Below are positions 20,194-32,217 of a stretch of DNA of 32,217 nt, one piece after another. The notes under the pieces were generated by a model. That model worked only from the letters and a program-made list of their open reading frames with translations. It was not told the DNA's origin and ran no database searches. This DNA comes from a virus: positions 1 to 32,217 of the IMG/VR virus record IMGVR_UViG_3300024344_000074; one strand, written 5' to 3'. The position numbers and the translations under genes are program-made. Within the stretch, counting starts at the first letter, position 1. Each line of letters opens with the position of its first letter.

Positions 20194-20204
20194 AAATGTT
20201 AACC

Positions 20205-20618
20205 TTAGTTAATATCTTCATCTTTTACTGCAGCTAGTTGCAAAGAACCCATTAAATTTTTAAGTTCTGTTTGCAATTCCTCGTCAGTTTTTTTACCAGT
20301 TACATCTTCAATTTTAGTTGTAGTCTGATATCCAGTTCTATCCAAGATAGAATTGATTGCACCAAGCTTTGTACTTGCGTTAACTGCTGGGTCTACTACC
20401 AATTGTTGCAATTTTTCTATAGCAACTGGTACTGCACCATTTAAAAGCTTCCTAGTAGCATCCTCAATCTCTGCAGAAAGCTTATTTTTAAGCTCATATC
20501 CCTGCTGTTGAGCCGTTGCTGGAGAGTAACCTGCCTTAATTGCAGCCTCTGTAGCATTACCTTTTTCACTAAAGTGCCTAACGAACTCTTTTTGCTTGTC
20601 TGTCAATAGTTTTCTCAT
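20205..20618 (-). CDS. terS: Terminase small subunit
   Basis: A 137-aa protein with an N-terminal helix-turn-helix: LTDKQKEFVRHFSEKGNATE then AAIKAGYSPATAQQQGYEL (to about residue 43), the classical terminase_2-type DNA-recognition region. A helical oligomerisation region and an acidic tail follow. It binds the packaging site and activates TerL. It is the first late gene. Oddly, the ATG has no Shine-Dalgarno: it follows directly on an inverted repeat (ATACTTTA / TAAAGTAT, about 20617-20643) that would mask or replace normal initiation. Confidence 0.92.
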   Translation of the reverse strand: MRKLLTDKQKEFVRHFSEKGNATEAAIKAGYSPATAQQQGYELKNKLSAEIEDATRKLLNGAVPVAIEKLQQLVVDPAVNASTKLGAINSILDRTGYQTTTKIEDVTGKKTDEELQTELKNLMGSLQLAAVKDEDIN

Positions 20619-20729
20619 ATACTTTATAGTCTAAACTAAAGTATCTTGCTGTCAATAACAGGTTAATATTTGCATTTTTCCCTCCACTGTGTGGAGTAAT
20701 CCATGTTTAGTTACAACACAGATGCATTT

Positions 20730-20795
20730 GGGGGGTGAGGGGTAGTTTTAGAGGTAGCTCGTGTGTGTGTGGGTGTGAAAGGGTTTTTGAGGGGG
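20730..20795. other. G-runs / C-rich late leader (candidate rut, G-quadruplex or pac site)
   Basis: On the plus strand there are G-runs of 6, 4, 3, 3 and 5 at 20730-20735, 20739-20742, 20771-20773, 20781-20783 and 20791-20795, plus a GT run at 20761-20770, very unlike the AT-rich surroundings. The late transcript is the complement and is therefore C-rich and G-poor, the composition of Rho-utilisation sites. The G-rich strand could instead fold into a quadruplex or serve in packaging. Confidence 0.5.
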
Positions 20796-20872
20796 TATTT
20801 TTGTATACCTTATATAGTATGATGGAGCATTTTAAAACTAGATTTTTTAAAGGATAAAGCCCCAGCGATATC

Positions 20873-20901
20873 ATAGTAGCAAGTCGGTAATGTAATGTCA
20901 A
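20873..20901 (-). promoter_or_regulatory. Leftward late promoter
   Basis: On the minus strand TTGACA (20901-20896) and TACTAT (20878-20873) are separated by exactly 17 bases, close to the sigma70 consensus. The start would be near 20866, giving a leader of about 250 bases before terS. No other box of this quality serves the structural operon. Confidence 0.6.
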
Positions 20902-20908
20902 GTTTTTT

Positions 20909-20954
20909 AAAACCTTAGGTTTTGATTTTAGGTTTTGAATTTTGAAACCTAAAA
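20909..20954. repeat. AGGTTTT / AAAACCT repeat cluster upstream of the late promoter
   Basis: Four copies of AGGTTT or its complement lie in 46 bases. AAAACCT-T-AGGTTTT (20909-20923) is a perfect 15-base palindrome. TTTTAGGTTT (20926-20935) pairs perfectly with AAACCTAAAA (20945-20954) across a 9-base loop. No U-run follows on either strand, so a terminator is unlikely. The position at about -8 to -53 relative to the -35 box suits an activator or repressor. Confidence 0.55.
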
Positions 20955-20985
20955 AAATATCCTAGCTCATTTCAAAACTCAAATT

Positions 20986-21150
20986 TTACAAACCTGCTAA
21001 TTGATTTGTTAATCTGGTCTTCTCAGCTCTAAGATTTCTCAAGGCTTTTGGACTGGAAGCTCTTGGAGTATCTAAGTGCTTTTGAATAACTTTATTAACA
21101 AACTTTAATCTTTCGGTTGCAAACCAAATATCTACATCTGTCATCTTCAT
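20986..21150 (-). CDS. Small helical protein of unknown function (54 aa)
   Basis: The ATG at 21150 is preferred over an upstream start at 21171 because GGAGGT (21163-21158) lies 7 bases before it. The product begins MKMTDVDIWFATERLKFVNK and continues as a second basic helix rich in Arg/Lys (RASSPKALRNLRAEKTRLTN), ending QLAGL. No family is recognised. It has its own near-ideal promoter (21170-21198), divergent from the early rightward promoter, and lies just upstream of the late promoter region. That is a typical place for a small regulator, but regulation is only inferred. Confidence 0.68.
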   Translation of the reverse strand: MKMTDVDIWFATERLKFVNKVIQKHLDTPRASSPKALRNLRAEKTRLTNQLAGL

Positions 21151-21169
21151 ATTCTTTACCTCCATTATC

Positions 21170-21198
21170 ATGTTAACATATGTTAATATCTAAGTCAA
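21170..21198 (-). promoter_or_regulatory. Leftward early promoter for the 54-aa gene
   Basis: On the minus strand TTGACT (21198-21193), 17 bases, TAACAT (21175-21170). The boxes and spacing are the same as those of the rightward promoter at 27891. Predicted initiation is immediately upstream of the GGAGG ribosome site. Confidence 0.6.
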
Positions 21199-21199
21199 T

Positions 21200-21245
21200 A
21201 GTATATTTTCAGTAACTAGTTACCATTTGGTTACTAGTATATTTT
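21200..21245. repeat. Palindromes between divergent early promoters (operator candidate)
   Basis: Direct repeats AGTATATTTT at 21200-21209 and 21236-21245 enclose a perfect 12-base palindrome GTAACTAGTTAC (21212-21223) and a near-mirror copy GGTTACTAGT (21229-21238). The array sits midway between the promoters at 21198 (minus) and 21256 (plus), where one bound regulator could control both. Confidence 0.5.
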
Positions 21246-21255
21246 AAGTAAGTAG

Positions 21256-21284
21256 TTGACTTAGGTTAATAGATTTGTTAATAT
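21256..21284 (+). promoter_or_regulatory. Rightward early promoter
   Basis: TTGACT (21256-21261), a 17-base spacer and TAATAT (21279-21284). The spacer carries GGTTAATA and the -10 overlaps a second GTTAATA. It would drive the block of small plus-strand genes from 21320. Confidence 0.65.
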
Positions 21285-21319
21285 AAATATGAGTAAAAAA
21301 AATAAAGGAGGTTAGAGAT

Positions 21320-21538
21320 ATGCCTAGACCAATAGACTTAGGAATGGAAGCAATCGGAGCAATTGAATTCGATAATTATGTTCGTGTTCAATATTCTGGT
21401 CTTTATAATATGTATTCGCAAGAAGCTCGTGAAGATGCTGAATTATCAGTAGATGAGCATTTTACGATTATTTCACATTATAAAGAATTGACTGAAAAAT
21501 ATCCAGATGTGATTGAATTTTATGAAAATGAAATTTAA
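21320..21538 (+). CDS. Small acidic protein of unknown function (72 aa)
   Basis: A 72-aa acidic protein, MPRPIDLGMEAIGAIEFDNY at the N-terminus and a Glu/Asp-rich helical remainder (SQEAREDAELSVDEHF ... KYPDVIEFYENEI). There is no membrane segment, cysteine or known motif. The ribosome site AAAGGAGGT is strong. It is the first gene after the early promoter and is followed by a hairpin with a U-run (21551-21580), so it may be made in excess over the genes beyond. Small acidic first-expressed phage proteins are often host-takeover or DNA-mimic proteins; that is a guess here. Confidence 0.75.
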   Translation: MPRPIDLGMEAIGAIEFDNYVRVQYSGLYNMYSQEAREDAELSVDEHFTIISHYKELTEKYPDVIEFYENEI

Positions 21539-21544
21539 TTGTTA

Positions 21545-21580
21545 ATGACCTTAGCAAGTCAATAAACTGCTAATTTTTTT
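21545..21580 (+). terminator. Intercistronic hairpin-U-run, copy 1 of a 28-base repeat
   Basis: Bases 21545-21572 are identical to 21950-21977. TTAGC-A-AGT (21551-21559) pairs with ACT-GCTAA (21566-21573) around a CAATAA loop with one bulged A, followed by seven T. This reads as a weak intrinsic terminator or attenuator immediately before the next ribosome site. Confidence 0.6.
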
Positions 21581-21593
21581 AAGGGAGGAAATT

Positions 21594-21941
21594 ATGCAGA
21601 TAAAAAGTAACACATTATCAAAAGTTTTAGATAGAAAAGTTGATGATGATAATTATGAATATCCTGGAGTAAGATTAAAAATTTGTGGCAATGCACAGAC
21701 TTTGCCAACAGATAAAGAACTTGAAAATATTTTCCAGAAAATTGATGATTATTTAATTCAGTTTGAAAGAATAAAAAACAACCACACAAAAGCACAAGAA
21801 GCAATGTCTGAAATTTTTCGTATTTTCTTTGAGGATGATGTCCAGGAAATGATTTGCGATGAAACAAGTCAAAAAGTTGATTATGATGACATTAGCGAAG
21901 AAGTTAGAGCAATTCTTAATAATGCCACAATTGAGGTTTAG
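21594..21941 (+). CDS. Hypothetical acidic protein (115 aa)
   Basis: A 115-aa protein with ribosome site GGGAGG and start MQIKSNTLSKVLDRKVDDDN. It has a short beta-like part (YPGVRLKICGNAQTLP) and a long acidic helical part (QFERIKNNHTKAQEAMSEIF, then VQEMICDETSQKVDYDDISE). It carries three cysteines without a metal-binding arrangement. No family is recognised. It lies between the two copies of the hairpin repeat, so its transcript would be bounded at both ends. Confidence 0.75.
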   Translation: MQIKSNTLSKVLDRKVDDDNYEYPGVRLKICGNAQTLPTDKELENIFQKIDDYLIQFERIKNNHTKAQEAMSEIFRIFFEDDVQEMICDETSQKVDYDDISEEVRAILNNATIEV

Positions 21942-21949
21942 GCAACCTT

Positions 21950-21986
21950 ATGACCTTAGCAAGTCAATAAACTGCTATATTTTTTT
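21950..21986 (+). terminator. Intercistronic hairpin-U-run, copy 2 of the 28-base repeat
   Basis: The same 28 bases as 21545-21572, followed by TAT and then a T-run. The outer stem is one pair shorter (TAGC/GCTA) than in copy 1. It again precedes a ribosome site (GGAGG) and the next gene. Confidence 0.58.
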
Positions 21987-21997
21987 GGAGGATTACA

Positions 21998-22261
21998 ATG
22001 GTTAAAAAACAACTATCAAACAAAATCAACACAGTCATAGCCGACAACATTGATGACATTACTGTCAATGATTTAAGTATGATTGTTTACTACCATCACT
22101 ATTATAATCAAAAAGATTTTATTGATACAGATTTCACAGATTTATGCAGAAAAAGAATCAACGAAATTCTAATAGATTATAATTTACAGATATTTAATAT
22201 AGCCGATGTTATGGAGGAAGTTGGAAATGTCAAAAGAAATAAAAGCAATTATAAAAGTTAA
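21998..22261 (+). CDS. Hypothetical protein (87 aa)
   Basis: An 87-aa protein with ribosome site GGAGG. The middle is aromatic and His-rich (SMIVYYHHYYNQKDF), flanked by Asp/Asn-rich helices; the end is basic (NVKRNKSNYKS). No known motif. It begins a run of five small genes with overlapping ends, since the next gene starts inside it. It lies after the second hairpin repeat. Confidence 0.68.
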   Translation: MVKKQLSNKINTVIADNIDDITVNDLSMIVYYHHYYNQKDFIDTDFTDLCRKRINEILIDYNLQIFNIADVMEEVGNVKRNKSNYKS

Positions 22262-22433
22262 TTTTCAAGAAAGTTCTATGATATCAAATGCTTTATTACA
22301 ATTTGAAAATTCTATCAAAACTAAATACACACCTAGCCCAAACCATATTCAAGCGATACAAAAGTTAAGAAAATATGTTCACAGGGTTAATGAAAAACTT
22401 TACAATAAATTAAGGGAGGAAGACAATGGATAA
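22227..22433 (+). CDS. Small basic helical protein (68 aa)
   Basis: The ATG at 22227 is chosen because GGAGG (22213-22217) lies 9 bases upstream; an ATG at 22206 has no ribosome site. The product begins MSKEIKAIIKVNFQESSMIS and is mainly helical and basic, ending NKLREEDNG. No family is recognised. The final codons overlap the start of the next gene and encode the sequence AAGGGAGGAAGA, so the ribosome site for that gene lies within this one. Confidence 0.65.
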   Translation: MSKEIKAIIKVNFQESSMISNALLQFENSIKTKYTPSPNHIQAIQKLRKYVHRVNEKLYNKLREEDNG

Positions 22434-22626
22434 TTATAAAAAAGAAGTAAAAAAATGGTTTGACATAGAGTACAAAGTCTATCATTTTAGAAATTTGATA
22501 GAAAACCATAATAAAGAAAAAAGTTTATTAAAAAATGGAAAGATTCGCAAGAATAAAATGAAATTGATTGATGAAATGGTTGAAACTAAAAGAAAAGAAT
22601 TAAGGGAGGAAGATAATGAGCGATAA
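22426..22626 (+). CDS. Small basic helical protein (66 aa)
   Basis: A 66-aa, lysine-rich protein, MDNYKKEVKKWFDIEYKVYH, then NLIENHNKEKSLLKNGKIRK and a C-terminal helix ending ELREEDNER. It is predicted to be helical and DNA- or RNA-binding at most; no family is recognised. The last codons repeat the AATTAAGGGAGGAAGA cassette found at the end of the preceding gene, and this again is the ribosome site for the following gene. Confidence 0.68.
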   Translation: MDNYKKEVKKWFDIEYKVYHFRNLIENHNKEKSLLKNGKIRKNKMKLIDEMVETKRKELREEDNER

Positions 22627-22804
22627 TATCGAATGGTCAATGTCTATGAAGTTTTATAGTAGAACAAGCGAGAACGGACTAGACAAAGATTTCTATGTTT
22701 TTGAAGGCGAAATATTAGATGAGCAGACTTTACAAGCAGTAAAGGAAGCAGTCTTAAAAGCCATGATAAATAGAGAAAAAGAAAAAAAAGAGAGAGGTTA
22801 TTAA
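22616..22804 (+). CDS. Hypothetical protein (62 aa)
   Basis: A 62-aa protein, MSDNIEWSMSMKFYSRTSEN at the N-terminus, then a short beta-strand region (GLDKDFYVFEGEILDEQ) and an amphipathic, very charged C-terminal helix (AVKEAVLKAMINREKEKKER). No known motif. It starts inside the preceding gene (11-base overlap) with GGGAGG at good spacing. Confidence 0.66.
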   Translation: MSDNIEWSMSMKFYSRTSENGLDKDFYVFEGEILDEQTLQAVKEAVLKAMINREKEKKERGY

Positions 22805-22805
22805 T

Positions 22806-22976
22806 ATGAGTAATCATTGGACAGAAGCTTGGTTAGAGCAACGAGCTGAATACTGGGTTGAGCAAGGATTAGATTTTAAAGATGCTTGTATTCAAGCTAG
22901 GGAAGACCTCTTCATGGAGGATGATGATTCATGGAGAGAATATGATATAGATGAGGGGGATTTAGATGATGAGTAA
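22806..22976 (+). CDS. Short acidic protein (56 aa)
   Basis: A 56-codon frame from the ATG at 22806, two bases after the preceding stop, with GAGAGG upstream. The product begins MSNHWTEAWLEQRAEYWVEQ, is Trp-rich, and ends in a strongly acidic tail (EDDDSWREYDIDEGDLDDE), net charge about -19. A Trp-rich acidic small protein may mimic nucleic acid or bind a basic host protein; this is conjecture. The next gene's ATG lies inside its last codons. Confidence 0.75.
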   Translation: MSNHWTEAWLEQRAEYWVEQGLDFKDACIQAREDLFMEDDDSWREYDIDEGDLDDE

Positions 22977-23211
22977 ATATGAATCATTAAAGATTACCCA
23001 TGTTGTTATTGATACTTCTAAAAGCAATGAAGTTGTCGGTAGTGCTTCTGATGAAAAAAATATAAAACAAGTTTATAACGATACTGCGAGACATACAAAA
23101 AAATCTGTCATAAAGATTGTTAAATTAAAAAGACCTGTCGGTGCTAAAAAAGCAGACAAACTTTTTGGATATCCTTTTCGTATGTGGGAAAATAGGGGGG
23201 AATTTAGATGA
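22966..23211 (+). CDS. Hypothetical basic protein (80-81 aa)
   Basis: Two adjacent ATGs (22966 and 22969) follow GAGGGGG at 22953-22959; either may be used. The product, MSKYESLKITHVVIDTSKSN onward, alternates beta-strands with a Lys-rich C-terminal half (SVIKIVKLKRPVGAKKADKL) and ends FRMWENRGEFR. No family is recognised. The 11-base overlap with the upstream gene and 4-base overlap with the next show operon coupling. Confidence 0.7.
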   Translation: MMSKYESLKITHVVIDTSKSNEVVGSASDEKNIKQVYNDTARHTKKSVIKIVKLKRPVGAKKADKLFGYPFRMWENRGEFR

Positions 23212-23486
23212 GTATTAAAGAAATAAAAGAAGATGTTCGTTTAGAGCTTCAAGAAATGGATATAGAGCAAATCCTTAGCGAACTTAAAACCTTTAAAGTA
23301 AAAGAACATACTGAAGAGTGGGTTATTGATTGGCTAATGGAATATTTGTTAGACGAGGTGAATCGTACAGAGCTTACAGAAGAGATATGTGAAACTAATG
23401 ACGACTTTATTATGTACGGCAGAAAGGAACTTGCTGAATCATTGTTATCAAGATTAAAAATAGATTTTGGAGTGGAGGTAATGTGA
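23208..23486 (+). CDS. Hypothetical acidic protein (92 aa)
   Basis: A 92-aa acidic helical protein, MSIKEIKEDVRLELQEMDIE onward, with many Glu/Leu heptad-like spacings and an ending RLKIDFGVEVM. No known motif. The ribosome site is an unusual run of six G just upstream. It overlaps the previous stop by ATGA and the next GTG start by GTGA. Confidence 0.7.
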   Translation: MSIKEIKEDVRLELQEMDIEQILSELKTFKVKEHTEEWVIDWLMEYLLDEVNRTELTEEICETNDDFIMYGRKELAESLLSRLKIDFGVEVM

Positions 23487-23647
23487 GATATCCATTAGAG
23501 GTTTATGCTGTGAAAAAGAAATCTAGAATCCTTGATACGACTACACCACTTTCTTGGAAGAAATATTTTACATTAATAGTAGTTATAGGTTTAGCAAATG
23601 CTGTTATAATGTTTATATTGGAGGTATTTGGAATTAATGTGCGATAA
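23483..23647 (+). CDS. Small single-span membrane protein (54 aa, GTG start)
   Basis: A GTG at 23483, preceded by GGAGG (23474-23478), opens a 54-residue frame. The N-terminal half is basic (MRYPLEVYAVKKKSRILDTT), and residues about 29-50 are a clear membrane helix (FTLIVVIGLANAVIMFILEV), ending GINVR. The basic N-terminus suggests it stays in the cytoplasm. In this early block it might act on the host membrane, for example in superinfection control; a holin role is less likely so far from late genes. It overlaps the upstream gene by GTGA. Confidence 0.68.
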   Translation: MRYPLEVYAVKKKSRILDTTTPLSWKKYFTLIVVIGLANAVIMFILEVFGINVR

Positions 23648-23765
23648 ATGTTTTGCTTTGTATGAGAAATTTGAGCAGATGTATTTAGCATTAGGTTTTA
23701 GTGATACATTTGCTAAACTTGAAGCTATTGCCCATGTTGCTCTTTCTCAGAGCGATAATAAGTAA
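23637..23765 (+). CDS. Very small CxxC protein (42 aa)
   Basis: A 42-codon frame from the ATG at 23637, overlapping the membrane-protein gene by 11 bases. It begins MCDKCFALYEKFEQMYLALG with an N-terminal CxxC and continues as an amphipathic helix to QSDNK. A GGAGG lies upstream at a rather long spacing. One CxxC alone could make a zinc-linked dimer. It ends the plus-strand block and overlaps the convergent ATP-cone gene by 41 bases. Confidence 0.55.
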   Translation: MCDKCFALYEKFEQMYLALGFSDTFAKLEAIAHVALSQSDNK

Positions 23766-23970
23766 TAGTATTTTTTATTATATCTTGAATGTTTTGGTAA
23801 GTTGGATAAAACTCTTCAAATCTATTGTCTATACTTGCCTCAACATTCTTTACAAGTTGCCAACTAACATTAACATCTTTTATTTTATTATAAATCTTTT
23901 TAAATATTATCTCTTTATCATATGGAGCTAAAGAGCCATCTTTCTGTACTACTACTAAATCATATTTCAT
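23725..23970 (-). CDS. Stand-alone ATP-cone protein
   Basis: The ATG at 23970 follows GAGG at good spacing, better than an upstream in-frame start at 23994, giving 81 aa. The sequence VVQKDGSLAPYDKEIIFKKI, with later helices ending in YQNIQDIIKNTITYY, follows the ATP-cone pattern (V.K.DG....fd..Ki ... t..IQ..V...L) known from ribonucleotide reductase and NrdR. There it senses ATP/dATP. Here the domain is alone: no zinc ribbon and no reductase is fused or nearby. It might sense nucleotides and regulate host reductase or phage replication. The assignment rests on motif resemblance. Confidence 0.6.
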   Translation of the reverse strand: MKYDLVVVQKDGSLAPYDKEIIFKKIYNKIKDVNVSWQLVKNVEASIDNRFEEFYPTYQNIQDIIKNTITYYRSEKEQHGQ

Positions 23971-24277
23971 TGCAATCCTCACATAAACCACCACAACATT
24001 CAGCTAATTTTAAAACTTCTTTGAGCAACTCTCGCTGTGTTCCCCACTTTGCTTCAAATTCTTTTTTGCTGTGATGAAAAGCTTCTTTCCCTAATCTATG
24101 ATGAGCAACACACAAAGGAATAACTTCAAAGTGACTAGACCTTTTGCCCATGCCAGTCATATCTCTTATGTGATGTAACTCAGCATCTACAAACATATGA
24201 CCTTGTTTCCTGCATATAATACACCCAAGTCGAGCAATCTTGTCCATGTGTTTTTTCTCTTTGACTGTGTGCTTCAT
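23960..24277 (-). CDS. Ref-like RecA-dependent HNH nuclease
   Basis: A 105-aa protein with Cys19-x2-Cys22, then ELHHIRDMTGMGKRSSHFEV (H35, H36) and IPLCVAHHRLGKEAFHHSKK (C56, H59, H60, H68/H69) followed by FEAKWG. This is the pattern of the P1 Ref family (PF16786), HNH nucleases that cut at RecA-bound D-loops and enhance recombination. A Cys-rich tail (CCGGLCEDC) is an extra possible metal site. It belongs to the replication operon. The ATG at 24277 has no strong ribosome site; an internal Met at residue 11 is an alternative start. Confidence 0.82.
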   Translation of the reverse strand: MKHTVKEKKHMDKIARLGCIICRKQGHMFVDAELHHIRDMTGMGKRSSHFEVIPLCVAHHRLGKEAFHHSKKEFEAKWGTQRELLKEVLKLAECCGGLCEDCNEI

Positions 24278-24305
24278 AAGGGAAATATTATTGTAACACA
24301 GATGA

Positions 24306-24656
24306 CTAAATGTTGTAAGCTTTTTTCTCTTGATTTTGGTTAAAAGATTGTACTTTAATTAACTCTAAGTTTATTTCTACACATCTCTTTTGCCATTTTA
24401 ACTCAGCTTCAATCTGTGTAGCATCTGCAAGTGCTTTAATATGTGCTGTATATCGCTCATCTGCATATGCATGAGCTTCTTGTTGAGCTACACTATTTGG
24501 TTTGCCAGTTGGTCCGAGTTGATATTCCTTCATAAGACTAGCTCTTAATATCTTTTTACTTTCTTCAAGTTGCACAAGATTTTTTAAAGCAACACTATGC
24601 TCATGACCTAACTTTCTAAGCTTGTTAATCTCAAACTCTTTATGTACTTCGTTCAT
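24306..24656 (-). CDS. Helical protein of the replication operon (116 aa)
   Basis: The ATG at 24656 follows TTGGAGGT at a spacing of 4, so a TTG at 24668 is not used. The product (MNEVHKEFEINKLRKLGHEH onward) is almost wholly helical, with alternating Lys/Glu and an Ala-rich centre (SVAQQEAHAYADERYTAHIK). No catalytic or metal motif is visible. Similar helical proteins are common beside phage helicases, but I cannot name a function. It overlaps the helicase end by 17 bases. Confidence 0.68.
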   Translation of the reverse strand: MNEVHKEFEINKLRKLGHEHSVALKNLVQLEESKKILRASLMKEYQLGPTGKPNSVAQQEAHAYADERYTAHIKALADATQIEAELKWQKRCVEINLELIKVQSFNQNQEKKAYNI

Positions 24657-26163
24657 TGTTACCTCCAATCATATTTTGTATTTTAATTTTAGATTTGTGT
24701 CGTTTTATATTGTGATGTTTTATATACCCTTCAACATCTTTTGTTGGTCTTACAGGCAGTATATTTTTTTTAAAATTAGGAAAGTGTTTAAATTTATTTT
24801 TAAACAAATGACTTGCCCATCCATCGAGGTAGCCTCTTTGTCTTGCATAGAAAAGTAATCCTGCATAAAAAGTTTCTTTGTCTGCAACTGTTGGCTCGTT
24901 CTTTTTTTTCTTTAATTCAACAAGTCTGCCTTGTGCAATCAACAGCTCAGTGTCTTTTTTAGTAGGTTTACAGCCACAATTAGGACATTCTGGGCTGTCT
25001 GCAGTAGGTTTGTATACAAAATCACATTGCACACAGGTAAATGGTTGTTTCTCTATTGGTTGTGGTTCTTTTCTTTCTTTACTAACATTAGTCGTTACAT
25101 CTAATGTCCATTGAGGTGGCTCATCAGGAAAGCCATGTTCATAAACAGCACCACTATGGTCTATAATTAATGTATCTTTCTTGCCATCATCTGGTCTAAG
25201 ACTTCTACCTACCATTTGTAGATACAATCCATAACTTTTAGTAGGCCTTGCTAATATAACACAGGATATTTTAGGCTCATCCCATCCTTCTGTTAATACT
25301 TGACAGTTAGCTAAGACCTTAATGCTACCATCTTTTATCATAGCTAATTGTCTTTCTCTTTCTATTTCTGGCATTTTACCATCTATGTGACCAGCAGGTA
25401 TGCCACTGTCATTAAACATCTTAGCTATCTTTTTACTATGGTTTATTGATGTAGCAAATGCAACAGTAGGTCTATCTTGACCATACATTATCCAATGGTT
25501 TACAATGTCACCTATTAGTTTAGGTGTGTTCATTCTTTTGTCTAGCCTACCTTTTTCATAATCACCTGCTAATACTTTTAGTCCTTTTAAATCTGGCATT
25601 GTTGGTGCATAGATTCTACTAGGAACAAGATAGCCTTCTTCTGTCAAATCTTTTATGTTGCTGCACTCTATAAGACCTTGATAGATATCACCTAATCCTT
25701 TACCATCTGCTCTACATGGTGTTGCAGTTAAACCTATGACATGAGCTTCTGGATATTCTTCTAGCATTTTTTGGAAAGTAAATGATGCAGACCTGTGTGC
25801 TTCATCAAAAATAATCAAATCTGCATCTGGTCTATCAAAATCAAAATTATCTTTTCTTGCAGTATAAGTTTGTATTGATACAACTTGCACATCAGCATCT
25901 GGTGTAGTTGGTTTATCTGCCATTATCACACCATGTCTAACACCAAAATTAAAAAGTTTGTTGCTACATTGCATAATTAATTCTCTTCTATGTGCAACAA
26001 AGACACACTTCTTACCATTCTCTATTACTTTGCGAATGATATCTGCAGCAACCACAGTTTTACCAGAACCTGTTGGTGCAACTAACAGAACCTTTTTTCT
26101 TTTGGTAAATGATTCTCTTATATCATCTATTGCTTTTGTTTGATAAGGACGTAACTGGTGCAT
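24640..26163 (-). CDS. SF2 DEAH-type helicase with zinc ribbon
   Basis: The ATG at 26163 follows GGAG and gives 507 aa starting MHQLRPYQTKAIDDIRESF; a longer frame reaching 26235 lies inside the primase gene and lacks a ribosome site. Motif Q/I: RPYQ and APTGSGKT (29-36). II: DEAH (120-123). III: TATP (146-149). VI: QMVGRSLRP (316-324). Four cysteines (C377, C380, C393, C396) form a zinc ribbon after the RecA-like domains. It is a DNA translocase or unwinding enzyme of the SSL2/RadD-like type. It follows the primase gene with a 41-base overlap, so the two probably act together at the fork. Confidence 0.92.
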   Translation of the reverse strand: MHQLRPYQTKAIDDIRESFTKRKKVLLVAPTGSGKTVVAADIIRKVIENGKKCVFVAHRRELIMQCSNKLFNFGVRHGVIMADKPTTPDADVQVVSIQTYTARKDNFDFDRPDADLIIFDEAHRSASFTFQKMLEEYPEAHVIGLTATPCRADGKGLGDIYQGLIECSNIKDLTEEGYLVPSRIYAPTMPDLKGLKVLAGDYEKGRLDKRMNTPKLIGDIVNHWIMYGQDRPTVAFATSINHSKKIAKMFNDSGIPAGHIDGKMPEIERERQLAMIKDGSIKVLANCQVLTEGWDEPKISCVILARPTKSYGLYLQMVGRSLRPDDGKKDTLIIDHSGAVYEHGFPDEPPQWTLDVTTNVSKERKEPQPIEKQPFTCVQCDFVYKPTADSPECPNCGCKPTKKDTELLIAQGRLVELKKKKNEPTVADKETFYAGLLFYARQRGYLDGWASHLFKNKFKHFPNFKKNILPVRPTKDVEGYIKHHNIKRHKSKIKIQNMIGGNNERST

Positions 26164-26986
26164 ATCTACTCCATATATCGTTAAGTTGAAATATAGCTTC
26201 TTTAGGATTTTCTGGTGGGTTACAAGCTCTTGCAAACTCTAATGCCTCACCTCTTGCATACTCGTATGATTCACCACGAAGTCTTATGCCTATCAACATT
26301 CTGACTAATCGTTCATGCCTGTCGCCTTCTGATGCTCCATAATTCGTACTGCCACTATATTTGGATTCATAACTTGTGAAATTTATTACTTTTGGTTTTG
26401 GTCTTTCTAATTTTAAACCATTTTTTATTTCTTCTCTAGTGTATGGTTTTATTTTATAAGTGCTAATAATTTTTATTGGATAAGGTTTGTTCTTGTTGTG
26501 ATAAAAACCAGCAACTCGCATGACTCTAGGTAAATCTTTTACTTTTTCATCCCCCCCAAATTTTTCTGCTAGTGCTTGTTGGTAAAGTGTAAAACTTTCT
26601 AGTGGCATATCTGACACTAACCAATAACAATGATACTTATCTGGACTTGTGTTCACAATCAAGTGAGGGAGTAAAGTAAACTTTTCAGGTAAGGGAGAAC
26701 CATCAAGGTCTACAAATACCGCCCTCACTTTTTTTATGTGCTTTGTCGTTCTACCTAGTAGGTCTGTTTCATTAACAGTGAAGAACACACCTGCACCCTG
26801 TTTATTCAAGTCAGCTAACTCATGGAAGTGTTGCTTTATTGTTCCATGCAGTTGTTTTATAACTTTTTTATTTTTACCTTTGTCACAAAAAGTTTGAAAT
26901 GTATGTTCTGGTCCAAACATTTCTAAGAACTCGTAGTAGGTAGAGCAATTAGTGTAATAGGGTACTCCATTAAAACTATTACTCAT
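26123..26986 (-). CDS. RepB/AEP-like DNA primase
   Basis: A 287-aa protein with VRAVFVDLDGSPLP (D93, D95; AEP motif I DxD), LIVNTSPDKYHCYWLVSDMP (His119, motif II) and DLPRVMRVAGFYHNK (about 151-165; motif III region). This order is typical of RepB-type archaeo-eukaryotic primases (PF16793). The C-terminus (GDRHERLVRMLIGIRLRGES) resembles the helical domain after such primases. It would lay down primers or initiate replication. The ribosome site GGAG precedes the ATG; the start overlaps the DUF1376 gene by 8 bases. Confidence 0.85.
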   Translation of the reverse strand: MSNSFNGVPYYTNCSTYYEFLEMFGPEHTFQTFCDKGKNKKVIKQLHGTIKQHFHELADLNKQGAGVFFTVNETDLLGRTTKHIKKVRAVFVDLDGSPLPEKFTLLPHLIVNTSPDKYHCYWLVSDMPLESFTLYQQALAEKFGGDEKVKDLPRVMRVAGFYHNKNKPYPIKIISTYKIKPYTREEIKNGLKLERPKPKVINFTSYESKYSGSTNYGASEGDRHERLVRMLIGIRLRGESYEYARGEALEFARACNPPENPKEAIFQLNDIWSRYAPVTSLSNKSNR

Positions 26987-27341
26987 TGCTCCACCTTGCT
27001 ATTGCACCCTTCTTGCCTGCTTTTGATTTTGCTTTTCTATATTTTTTTTGCACAGCTCTTTCCTCATCTGCTTGTATGCAACGAAGATAGCCATTATCTT
27101 CTATAAACATTGGTGCTATCTTAGGCCACATTTTTTTTATTTTATCTAAACTACAATTACACATTCTTGCAAGGACTTCAAAATCAAATTTTATTTGGTA
27201 ACCTCTCCAGCAATGACACAACAATAAAATGTATGCACCCTGTTCTTCTAACGACATCGTTAGCCTTACAGGTTCACTAATCCAATCAGCAGCATAGAAT
27301 TGAAAAGCTGGTGATTGTTCATGCTTTGTACTCTTTCTCAT
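26979..27341 (-). CDS. DUF1376-family replication-associated protein
   Basis: A 120-aa protein with SPAFQFYAADWISEPVRLTM, SLEEQGAYILLLCHCWRGYQ and a winged-helix-like CSLDKIKKMWPKI region, the classical DUF1376 pattern. It ends in a Lys/Arg-rich tail (KAGKKGAIARWSNE). DUF1376 proteins lie with phage replication-initiation genes and may bind origin DNA. It is first in the replication operon, just downstream of the promoter at 27371-27398 and beside the repeat-rich region 27434-27525. The ribosome site AAGGGAG supports this start. Confidence 0.88.
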   Translation of the reverse strand: MRKSTKHEQSPAFQFYAADWISEPVRLTMSLEEQGAYILLLCHCWRGYQIKFDFEVLARMCNCSLDKIKKMWPKIAPMFIEDNGYLRCIQADEERAVQKKYRKAKSKAGKKGAIARWSNE

Positions 27342-27370
27342 TAGTTCTCCCTTAATTAAGTATTGTTAAT

Positions 27371-27398
27371 ATAATACCTAAGTTAATATGCTTGTCAA
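27371..27398 (-). promoter_or_regulatory. Promoter of the replication operon
   Basis: On the minus strand TTGACA (27398-27393), a 16-base spacer and TATTAT (27376-27371). The spacer contains AACTTAGGT, the reverse complement of the CTAAGTT element shared with the early promoters, placed where a repressor would block both boxes. Confidence 0.6.
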
Positions 27399-27433
27399 AT
27401 ACACTATACTACTAAGGTATATATATCTTGTAA

Positions 27434-27525
27434 GAAGATGTAGACGAAGATGTAGACGTAGACGAAGAGCTATATTTTGCCATTGGCAAAAGTATGGCAC
27501 TGCTATGGCACTGCTATAGCACTGC
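27434..27525. repeat. Tandem repeats and palindrome: candidate replication origin or regulator array
   Basis: Three adjoining elements. (i) GAAGATGTAGAC twice in tandem (27434-27457) followed by GTAGAC-GAAGAG to 27469. (ii) A perfect palindrome TTTTGCC-ATT-GGCAAAA (27475-27491). (iii) Three 11-base units, TATGGCACTGC twice and TATAGCACTGC once (27493-27525), one per helical turn, followed directly by TATAAT. Iterons beside replication genes suggest an initiator-binding origin, or an operator. Confidence 0.6.
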
Positions 27526-27632
27526 TATAATATGTGTCATACGATTAGCTAGTGTTTATGCAGGTTAGAGGCGGAGAGTTGAGTGTAAGGGTTTTTATTA
27601 AGTTTATAGCACTCTCCGCTTTAATTTTTTTT
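27526..27632 (+). ncRNA. Possible small RNA with long hairpin terminator
   Basis: TATAAT (27526-27531) follows the 11-base repeats with no good -35. A transcript from about 27538 would end in a hairpin with a 9-bp perfect stem GCGGAGAGT / ACTCTCCGC (27571-27579, 27611-27619), a 31-base loop, and T8 (27625-27632). The loop's GAGTG (27581) could alternatively pair with CACTC (27610-27614), giving a second fold. The RNA end would overlap the 3' end of the repressor gene in antisense. Hypothetical. Confidence 0.35.
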
Positions 27633-27851
27633 ATTAATTTTAATATTTAAATCGAAATCTAAATCAGGTCTAATATAGTCAATCTCATAATCACCTAACA
27701 TAGCTATTTGATATGCTCTGAGTGCAGGTACTACTTCCCATTTAGATACTGCTGGATGAGATATGTTTAATAATTTTGATAAATTTCGTCCACCATATTT
27801 TGCTACTATTTCGTTTCGTCTTTGTTTTGCAAGTTCGTACTTTTCTTCCAT
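27621..27851 (-). CDS. Cro/YdaS-like helix-turn-helix repressor
   Basis: A 76-aa DNA-binding protein. The helix-turn-helix is NLSKLLNISHPAVSKWE (residues about 23-39), followed by VPALRAYQIAML and the RPDL motif (61-64) typical of small Cro/YdaS-type phage regulators. It is monocistronic and divergent from the recombination operon. Its ATG lies only 6 bases after the -10 box, and no Shine-Dalgarno is present, so the mRNA is probably leaderless, as for lambda cI from PRM. The likely targets are the TTGACTTA/GTYAATA sites at the nearby promoters. A wider role in a lytic-lysogenic choice is inferred; no integrase is seen. Confidence 0.85.
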   Translation of the reverse strand: MEEKYELAKQRRNEIVAKYGGRNLSKLLNISHPAVSKWEVVPALRAYQIAMLGDYEIDYIRPDLDFDLNIKINKKN

Positions 27852-27857
27852 GTAGAT

Positions 27858-27885
27858 ACTATACCTGTAGCTTAACTATTGTCAA
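27858..27885 (-). promoter_or_regulatory. Leaderless promoter of the repressor gene
   Basis: On the minus strand TTGACA (27885-27880), a 16-base spacer and TATAGT (27863-27858). The ATG begins 6 bases further, about where transcription should start. The -35 is symmetric with that of the opposite promoter (GTCAA-CTTAC-TTGAC, 27881-27895). Confidence 0.65.
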
Positions 27886-27890
27886 CTTAC

Positions 27891-27919
27891 TTGACTTAAC
27901 ATATATTCACAGTTAACAT
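27891..27919 (+). promoter_or_regulatory. Rightward promoter of the recombination operon
   Basis: TTGACT (27891-27896), a 17-base spacer and TAACAT (27914-27919). The -35 boxes of this and the repressor promoter are 5 bases apart and form an inverted repeat, so one bound dimer would cover both. A ribosome site AAAGGAG follows before the ATG at 27949. Confidence 0.65.
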
Positions 27920-30962: not shown

Positions 30963-31205
30963 TTAATTTTTTAATGGGTTTTGTATTGTAATTTTAAACT
31001 CGTTAAGACTAGATTCTAATACTGCTACTCTTTTTTCTAGAATAGCTATTTCTTTCTGCATAGCTTTTACAGTTTTAGTATTAGTGGATTGCTCTAACTC
31101 ATCAAGTCTATTGTTAAATACACCCCATGTATAAAAGCCTCCTCCGATTGTAGATATGATACCTACTAAGACTATGTATTTTTTAAGTGTTTCTATTAAA
31201 TCCAT
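30963..31205 (-). CDS. Membrane protein with coiled-coil tail (80 aa)
   Basis: An 80-aa protein with an N-terminal membrane span (YIVLVGIISTIGGGFYTWGV, residues about 9-28) and then a leucine/isoleucine heptad coiled coil (ELEQSTNTKTVKAMQKEIAI...EKRVAVLESSLNEF). The N-in, coiled-coil-out layout resembles i-spanins (Rz type) and small membrane proteins of marine phages. No lipobox partner is visible. Its ATG shares bases with the stop of the upstream acidic protein (TAATG). It is a candidate lysis or envelope-interaction gene. Confidence 0.68.
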   Translation of the reverse strand: MDLIETLKKYIVLVGIISTIGGGFYTWGVFNNRLDELEQSTNTKTVKAMQKEIAILEKRVAVLESSLNEFKITIQNPLKN

Positions 31206-32217
31206 TAGTAACCTCTTAGCTGTCTTAATTCTCTTTCAGCCATTTGTCTTTTTATTGTAGCATCTTTAAGTTTTTCCTGATACTTTCTCACAGGGTCATT
31301 TATAGATATAGCTACAAATTTTGTATTATCATTATAAATCTTTTTGCTGTACTCATCAAGTGTCCTAAAATCCTCGTAAGTATTACCTTCATATATCTTT
31401 CTATTGTCTGTGTAGCTTTTATTGTAGCTAGACAAATCAACTTGTTGTGCTTCCATGAGTTGCGCACCTATAATATTTGTAGCTGCAAGTTGTTTGTCTA
31501 TAGCTTTTATTTTAACTGCTACCTGTGTCTGCACATCTTGTACGTCTACTGCCACTTGCTCGTTACTAGATGGTTCACTCTCAAGTTGCTGTCCATCTGT
31601 CGCCACAAAGGTTTCTTCAGTTTGTTTAGGTTGCTCTTCCATGACCTCCTCCATGGCGTCATCTTGTATTGCGACTGTGCTATCAATCTCTTTATCCTCT
31701 TGTTCCTTTGGCTCTTCAACAATTTCTGGTCCTCCAAATGCTTGTAAGATTTCTACTTCTTCAAACTCTTTGTCAAGTTCTTCTGTAGTTTCTTCTAATA
31801 TAAACATTTCTGTATCTTCTTTCAAGAATATAAAATCATCTAATTTAAATTCTTCTACAACATAATCCATCTTGTATTCTTCTTCCAATGTATCTTCCCA
31901 CTTTGTGTCTAACTCTATGGGTTCTGGTTGTGTAAAGTTTTCATAATAGCTTACTGTAAGAGATGGATTTCTCAAGTCTGCTGCATAATGTGCTGTAGTG
32001 TTACTGAATTCGTTAAACTCAAATCTTGCTGTTATTTCGTAATCTTGCTGACTGTTTCCACCCACAATAATAGTGTCAGTATAGTTACTATAATCACAAC
32101 CATTAAAAGTAGTACAGCTTCCGTCAATTTGTCTTTGTTGTGTAATACTCACCCCATTGTCATCTATTAGTGTTTGTTTCATTATAACATTTTGTGTATT
32201 GCTATTCCAAAACCAGA
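31205..32217 (-). CDS. Acidic protein of unknown function, N-terminus outside window
   Basis: A reading frame of at least 336 residues. An ATG lies at 32182, but it has no ribosome site, and the frame continues open to the right edge (…FWNSNTQNVIMKQTLI), so the true start probably lies beyond the window. The N-terminal visible part is beta-rich, with two nearby cysteines in DGSCTTFNGCDYSNYTD. The middle is extremely acidic and disordered (EETTEELDKEFEEVEILQ), and the C-terminus is a Lys/Arg helix ending ERELRQLRGY. It could be a virion surface or tail-associated protein, but no family is recognised. Confidence 0.7.
   Translation of the reverse strand, partial: WFWNSNTQNVIMKQTLIDDNGVSITQQRQIDGSCTTFNGCDYSNYTDTIIVGGNSQQDYEITARFEFNEFSNTTAHYAADLRNPSLTVSYYENFTQPEPIELDTKWEDTLEEEYKMDYVVEEFKLDDFIFLKEDTEMFILEETTEELDKEFEEVEILQAFGGPEIVEEPKEQEDKEIDSTVAIQDDAMEEVMEEQPKQTEETFVATDGQQLESEPSSNEQVAVDVQDVQTQVAVKIKAIDKQLAATNIIGAQLMEAQQVDLSSYNKSYTDNRKIYEGNTYEDFRTLDEYSKKIYNDNTKFVAISINDPVRKYQEKLKDATIKRQMAERELRQLRGY

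Follow-up and report, generated by a model that had tools for sequence, protein, structure and literature searches.

A Conserved Palindrome at the Operon Heads of Baldr-Type Pelagiphages and Its Candidate Cro-Type Repressor

Gene Organization and Identification of a Shared Palindrome

The stretch of viral DNA analyzed in this work (IMG/VR record IMGVR_UViG_3300024344_000074; 32,217 bases, hereafter referred to as the window) covers most of the genome of one Baldr-type podovirus, which probably infects Pelagibacter, one of the commonest bacteria in the sea, and which shares 77% identity in the terminase large subunit with Pelagibacter phage EXVC032P Baldr. The late genes of this phage lie leftward from about 20.6 kilobases (kb) and a cluster of small early genes lies rightward from 21.3 kb. 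The genes for the HNH, helicase, primase, and primosomal proteins are leftward, up to 27.34 kb, and beyond them are found a leftward gene for a 76-amino acid (aa) repressor (cro) and then, rightward, a gene for a 198-aa protein (ssb198) and an exonuclease gene. Within the intergenic DNA, which makes up about 4% of the window, and at the junction of the terminase genes terS and terL, our analyses have identified a palindrome that occupies five places (O1 to O5) and is the proposed binding site of the 76-aa protein. The window and most of its relatives are fragments, and statements of absence rest mainly on the complete Baldr genome.

An inverted repeat was first suggested by comparing the divergent promoters of the relatives, and all spacings of its half-sites were then scanned in three arrangements. 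In the reduced set of relatives used for this spacing scan, TTRAC-Nk-GTYAA occurs 30 times at k = 4 and at most 5 times at any other k from 0 to 25, and the other two arrangements, including direct repeats, never exceed 10 copies at any spacing. An unbiased palindrome scan (1024 arms, 15 spacings) of a wider comparison set of 17 relatives, from which the window was left out, ranks TTAAC at k = 4 first (21 copies vs. 1.9 expected). The window has four copies of TTRAC-Nk-GTYAA at k = 4, three of them intergenic and the fourth at the terS/terL junction. A position weight matrix (PWM) trained on the relatives, with the window and its twin G001 left out, has the symmetric form TATTRAC-N4-GTYAATA, and its five best matches in the window are, in order, at 20199 (O1), 21256 (O3), 21173 (O2), 27356 (O4), and 27872 (O5); the next-best match lies inside a gene and scores 8.8 vs. 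11.4 for O5. Because some relatives entered both the PWM and the spacing scan, the two tests are not fully independent. On this sequence evidence, the conserved unit is a 14-base pair (bp) palindrome, TTRAC-N4-GTYAA, with the extended form TATTRAC-N4-GTYAATA.

Relationship of the Palindrome to Promoter Elements and Direct Repeats

A sequence-only reading of the window had pointed to two other motifs, viz. TTGACTTA at the -35 of the promoters at 21198 (minus), 21256 (plus), and 27891 (plus), and directly repeated GTYAATA half-sites 11–17 bp apart, and had suggested that these belong to one phage regulon. Both motifs are located where it placed them. Exactly three copies of TTGACTTA are present (21191–21198 on the minus strand, 21256–21263 and 27891–27898 on the plus strand), all at intergenic promoters, vs. 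a mean of 0.07 in shuffled intergenic DNA, and the GTYAATA pairs are found at 20651, 21182, 21265, and 27365. Counts over the whole window are ordinary (TTGACTTA, 3 vs. 2.7 expected; GTYAATA, 20 vs. 17 expected), and the signal therefore consists of clustering at promoters, with 10 intergenic copies of GTYAATA vs. 1.06 expected and four close direct intergenic pairs vs. 0.004 expected. An equal motif density in shuffled intergenic sequence, which that reading had named as grounds for abandoning it, was thus not observed.

The conservation of these motifs in relatives, which had also been proposed as a check, gave a divided result. In the 17 wider relatives TTGACTTA is not enriched (13 copies vs. 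26.6 expected), and GTYAATA pairs at 11 or 12 bp are absent, as is the exact 29-bp composite TTGACTTA-N13-GTTAAYAT in which all three window copies lie; the element that is conserved is the palindrome holding the GTYAATA half-site. In the twin G001, which is about 96% identical to the window over most aligned stretches and 89–92% identical around the early promoters, the leftward TTGACTTA reads TTTACATA and the palindrome there is intact, and GTCAATA at 21194 reads GTAAATA, which breaks the 21182/21194 pair. Hence, TTGACTTA is a -35 element in partial overlap with the operator, GTYAATA is a half-site of an inverted repeat and not part of a conserved direct one, and the direct-repeat spacing is, to judge from its distribution, a feature limited to the window and its close twins. 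The four pairs could provide extra half-site contacts beside the palindromes; however, cooperative binding of the repressor to an array of direct half-sites 11–17 bp apart is extremely improbable in view of the absence of 11- and 12-bp pairs from the relatives, the lack of enrichment of direct spacings, and the broken pair in G001.

The composite is, as its elements indicate, a sigma-70-type promoter (-35 TTGACT, 17 nucleotides, -10 TAAYAT), and the shared sequences could in principle be sigma-70 consensus only (TTGAC -35 and TAAYAT -10) in AT-rich DNA, with no regulator involved. All three TTGACTTA copies are indeed -35 elements with a -10 at 17 nucleotides, and the TTGAC arms of operators have better downstream -10 hexamers both than TTAAC arms (p 9e-5) and than all TTGAC in these genomes (p 2e-5). 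We nevertheless regard this explanation as very unlikely, as the 72 TTAAC arms have downstream -10s no better than background, TTGACTTA lacks enrichment in relatives, G001 has kept the palindrome beside a degraded -35, and the N4 spacing of the palindrome has no place in a sigma-70 promoter. Promoter consensus alone was rejected because it leaves the N4 palindrome unexplained. The better -10s of the TTGAC arms indicate that R in TTRAC marks an operator that doubles as a -35 element. No promoters for a phage RNA polymerase were found, and a search for a gene of the single-subunit type (PF00940) gave no match in 14 records, a search in which no positive control matched either.

Conservation and Phage Specificity

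In Baldr-type pelagiphages the palindrome recurs at orthologous operon heads, viz. in the gaps that separate cro from the 198-aa gene and from the primosomal gene, at the divergent promoter of the early and late genes that lies upstream of terS, and ahead of terL, either at the terS end or beyond it. A comparison of the window with G001 reveals 0 substitutions in 56 positions of four operators vs. 89 in the 829 other positions of those intergenic regions. The phages have about 4 sites per 35 kb, with 0–1 for a reversed control pattern, and ten Pelagibacter genomes have 1–6 sites per approximately 0.7–1.4 megabases, which is not above the reversed control. A scan of IMG/VR with the extended palindrome was uninformative because chance matches are expected in a collection of such size. 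These genomes thus share a palindrome with a specific spacing, conserved in position and sequence, overlapping predicted promoters, and specific for the phages. The earlier suggestion of one phage regulon is well supported in this form, as the early, late, replication, and cro operons all carry one and the same element, which is kept in place and is not a host feature.

The absence of a host signal also bears on whether the palindrome might be read by a host transcription factor (e.g., a CtrA-like protein) through which the phage would sense the state of its host. CtrA, which recognizes TTAA-N7-TTAA, is known to control other alphaproteobacterial phages (PMC9437464); however, the operator is an inverted TTAA-N6-TTAA, not N7, and CtrA sites number one in the window and none in its intergenic DNA (0.28 expected). 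The CtrA reading was rejected on this wrong spacing and this absence from intergenic DNA, and a host regulon was rejected for the lack of palindrome excess in the ten Pelagibacter genomes, which leaves control by a host factor highly improbable.

The Candidate Cro-Type Repressor

The proposed reader of all five operators is the 76-aa protein (27621–27851, minus strand), which matches the Pfam family P22_Cro (PF14549) with 42.5 bits vs. a curated cut-off of 30.2; P22_Cro is found above the cut-off in 14 of the 14 family records. The sole PDB match of its profile is P22 Cro (1rzs; E 8.9e-6), and the segment predicted to serve in recognition, ISHPAVSKW, hardly varies, in line with a nearly invariant operator. 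The P22 c2 operator of structure 2R1J, CATTTAAGATATCTTAAATA, has the layout TTAAG-N4-CTTAA (PMC9976882). The TTAAC-N4-GTTAA of the window shares its 5-bp arms and 4-bp centre and differs in arm base 5, which is C and not G. The sequence-only reading had named the 76-aa repressor as the regulator, and it is the best candidate; its role as the binder of the operator we strongly infer from its membership in the P22_Cro family, from P22 Cro as its only PDB match, and from the shared c2 operator geometry.

Most of the early proteins have no family match and could include an unrecognized DNA-binder, so that the operator might be real and bound by another phage protein, e.g., an uncharacterized early protein. 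This appears quite improbable to us, as Cro is the only recognizable repressor and is universal in the records, the operator sits at the promoter of cro itself, and palindromes with this layout are known targets of the Cro family.

Searches for the other components of a lysogeny module were negative within their scope. HTH_3 matched nothing except Cro itself, below the cut-off, so that no CI-type HTH_3 gene was found; no Peptidase_S24 was found; and the tyrosine integrase family (PF00589) had no match in 13 records including the complete Baldr, the window being incomplete and serine integrases lying outside this search.

Operators and Promoters of the Individual Operons

O1 (TTAACCTTAGTTAA; 20199–20212), which holds the first PWM rank, is located at the terS/terL junction in the late operon, 5 nucleotides before the terL ATG, and a palindrome at the same place is also found at the terS end in G003, G007, G014, L053, L063, and L077. 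No obvious promoter is present at O1 in the window; the matching gap of the relatives contains a promoter-like cassette, TTAAC-N4-GTTAATAGGTTG, followed by an AT-rich -10-like stretch. The promoter-like site of terS (20628–20655, minus strand) consists of TTGACA, 16 nucleotides, and TAGACT, with a half-site TTAAC upstream. Homologues of terS and of the 198-aa gene are present in Baldr (L035, approximately 38985–39440 and 31098–31685) and are unannotated in its record. A G-run and GT-rich tract lies by terS in the window (20719–20800) and a similar tract follows terS in Baldr (1–200); the tract and terS follow each other in a different order in the two phages, and the tract is a possible packaging (cos/pac) site.

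O2 (TTAACATATGTTAA; 21173–21186), a perfect 14-bp palindrome, overlaps the -10 of the leftward, late-direction promoter (21170–21198, minus strand; TTGACT, 17 nucleotides, TAACAT), and is intact in G001, in which the -35 of this promoter is degraded. O3 (TTGACTTAGGTTAA; 21256–21269), also recovered by the PWM, overlaps the -35 of the rightward early promoter (21256–21284, plus strand; TTGACT, 17 nucleotides, TAATAT). In L050/L051 only about 50 bp around O3 are still alignable in that region, with one mismatch in the operator. Two copies of a 26-bp repeat, GACCTTAGCAAGTCAATAAACTGCTA, at 21547–21572 and 21952–21977, each with a run of T behind it, are located just before the Shine-Dalgarno sequences of two early genes; the GTCAATA matches inside this repeat are not operators, and G001 lacks the exact repeat.

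O4 (TTAACAATACTTAA, minus strand; 27356–27369; PWM rank 4) is a weaker site, with a single mismatch in an arm, where transcription of the replication operon is predicted to start. The promoter of this operon (27371–27398, minus strand) consists of TTGACA, 16 nucleotides, and TATTAT, and several relatives likewise have a TTGAC -35 at the corresponding position. Weaker sites of this type, with one altered arm base, are also found in G004 and G013, and full sites are found at the O4 place in Baldr, G002, and G003. The neighbouring gap between cro and the primosomal gene (27400–27620) has a replication-origin-like anatomy conserved in about a dozen relatives, viz. 3.3 copies of an 11-bp iteron, TATGGCACTGC (27493–27528), a near-invariant palindrome, TTTTGCCATTGGCAAAA (27475–27491), a strand-asymmetric GAAGATGTAGAC repeat (27434–27468), a hairpin after cro, and a conserved ACAAGATA motif.

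O5 (TTAACTATTGTCAA; 27872–27885), whose place between cro and the 198-aa gene is occupied in nearly all relatives, overlaps the -35 of the cro promoter (27858–27885, minus strand; TTGACA, 16 nucleotides, TATAGT) and lies 5 bp from the -35 of the ssb198/exonuclease promoter (27891–27919, plus strand; TTGACT, 17 nucleotides, TAACAT). The geometry of the cro promoter is the same in L041. Its -10 TATAGT ends 6 nucleotides before the cro ATG (27851–27863), its start point is predicted on or next to that ATG, and cro is probably transcribed without a leader. Relative to the promoter of the 198-aa gene, the centre of O5 is near -47, and its effect there could be neutral, negative, or positive.

Proposed Regulation and Comparison with Known Systems

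We consider it quite probable, from the sequence features described above, that the five places constitute one dispersed operator that is read by a dimer of the 76-aa Cro protein and represses the early, replication, and recombination promoters. The Cro dimer would place one recognition helix in each half-site of the palindrome and, once bound, would exclude a host sigma-70-type RNA polymerase from the early -35 at O3, the leftward -10 at O2, the replication start point at O4, and the cro -35 at O5; at O1 it may act as a roadblock within terS/terL. Cro would also repress its own gene and so limit its own level, and the early, replication, and recombination promoters would be turned down as infection proceeds. 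Almost all of the phage's gene blocks would thereby come under one regulator, and self-repression combined with global repression would amount to a self-limiting brake on early and replication transcription. Cro as the binder, repression as the effect, and this timing are inferred.

Several observations weigh against this scheme. At O1 the palindrome overlaps both the terS stop and a Shine-Dalgarno-like TAAGG, and the promoter-like site of terS in the window is without an N4 palindrome. The AlphaFold model of Cro is of low confidence (predicted local distance difference test score 58), too low for it to be used, and its best Foldseek match, again 1rzs P22 Cro, is weak (E 0.24); a second DNA-binding regulator could be checked for only among proteins visible to PHROGs or Pfam. 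Among the relatives, G010 encodes Cro, yet the 20 kb of it that were read contain no clear site; the only sites of G012 are located at cro and carry one mismatch; and HTVC010P and HTVC019P are without a detectable Cro homologue, yet have one site each. As a separate observation, the gap between cro and the 198-aa gene in L044/G010, where Cro is 73% identical to that of the window, is without TTAAC-N4-GTTAA and has TTTACTTTTGGTAAA, and an unrelated-looking TTTAC-N5-GTAAA was seen in G010 when alternative operators were sought; divergence of the operator is possible there.

More tentatively, and with somewhat less than even confidence, we suggest that a lone Cro-type repressor without a CI partner is the master regulator of the whole lytic programme in these apparently non-integrating pelagiphages, acting through about five dispersed operators of graded strength, and that from O5, which is adjacent to the ssb/exonuclease -35, Cro may also activate that promoter while repressing its own.

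The system most similar to the proposed Cro regulon is that of P22, with which the window shares, besides operator geometry, the P22_Cro family of its repressor and a site overlapping the repressor's own promoter. It differs from P22 in having no detected c2/CI-type partner, S24 protease domain, or integrase, and its sites, in place of a single OR/OL pair, are distributed over the early, late, and replication operons. Of the features of a lambda/P22 lysis-lysogeny switch, neither a CI/c2-type repressor beside cro nor a tyrosine integrase was found. Dispersed copies of one repressor site are also present along the genome of the temperate mycobacteriophage L5, whose approximately 30 stoperators are asymmetric, whereas the sites of the window are five in number, palindromic, and mostly located at operon heads. 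The Cro proteins of the telomere phages N15, PY54, and phiKO2 have an all-helical P22-like Cro fold (PMC4997575); however, these phages retain CB as a prophage repressor and have a Cro with a preference for one operator, whereas the window has several dispersed sites and no partner was found. TgrL of phiCbK, an XRE regulator of a virulent alphaproteobacterial phage whose defined targets are host genes (PMC10688885), is likewise a small phage-coded helix-turn-helix regulator, but the operators of the window are located in the phage genome and are scarce in the host.

Significance for Pelagiphage Biology

The transcriptional control of pelagiphages is poorly described, and no operator for any pelagiphage was found in the open-licence papers searched. 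The present work supplies an operator sequence, a named candidate repressor, and five target sites, which are testable with synthetic DNA or E. coli reporters and without growing SAR11, and the operator together with the cro gene provides a signature that can be sought in other phage contigs. If the proposed scheme is true, a regulon of this type, for which neither a CI partner nor an integrase was detected, would illustrate how a Cro-type repressor can function as a timing device and not as one half of a lysogeny switch.

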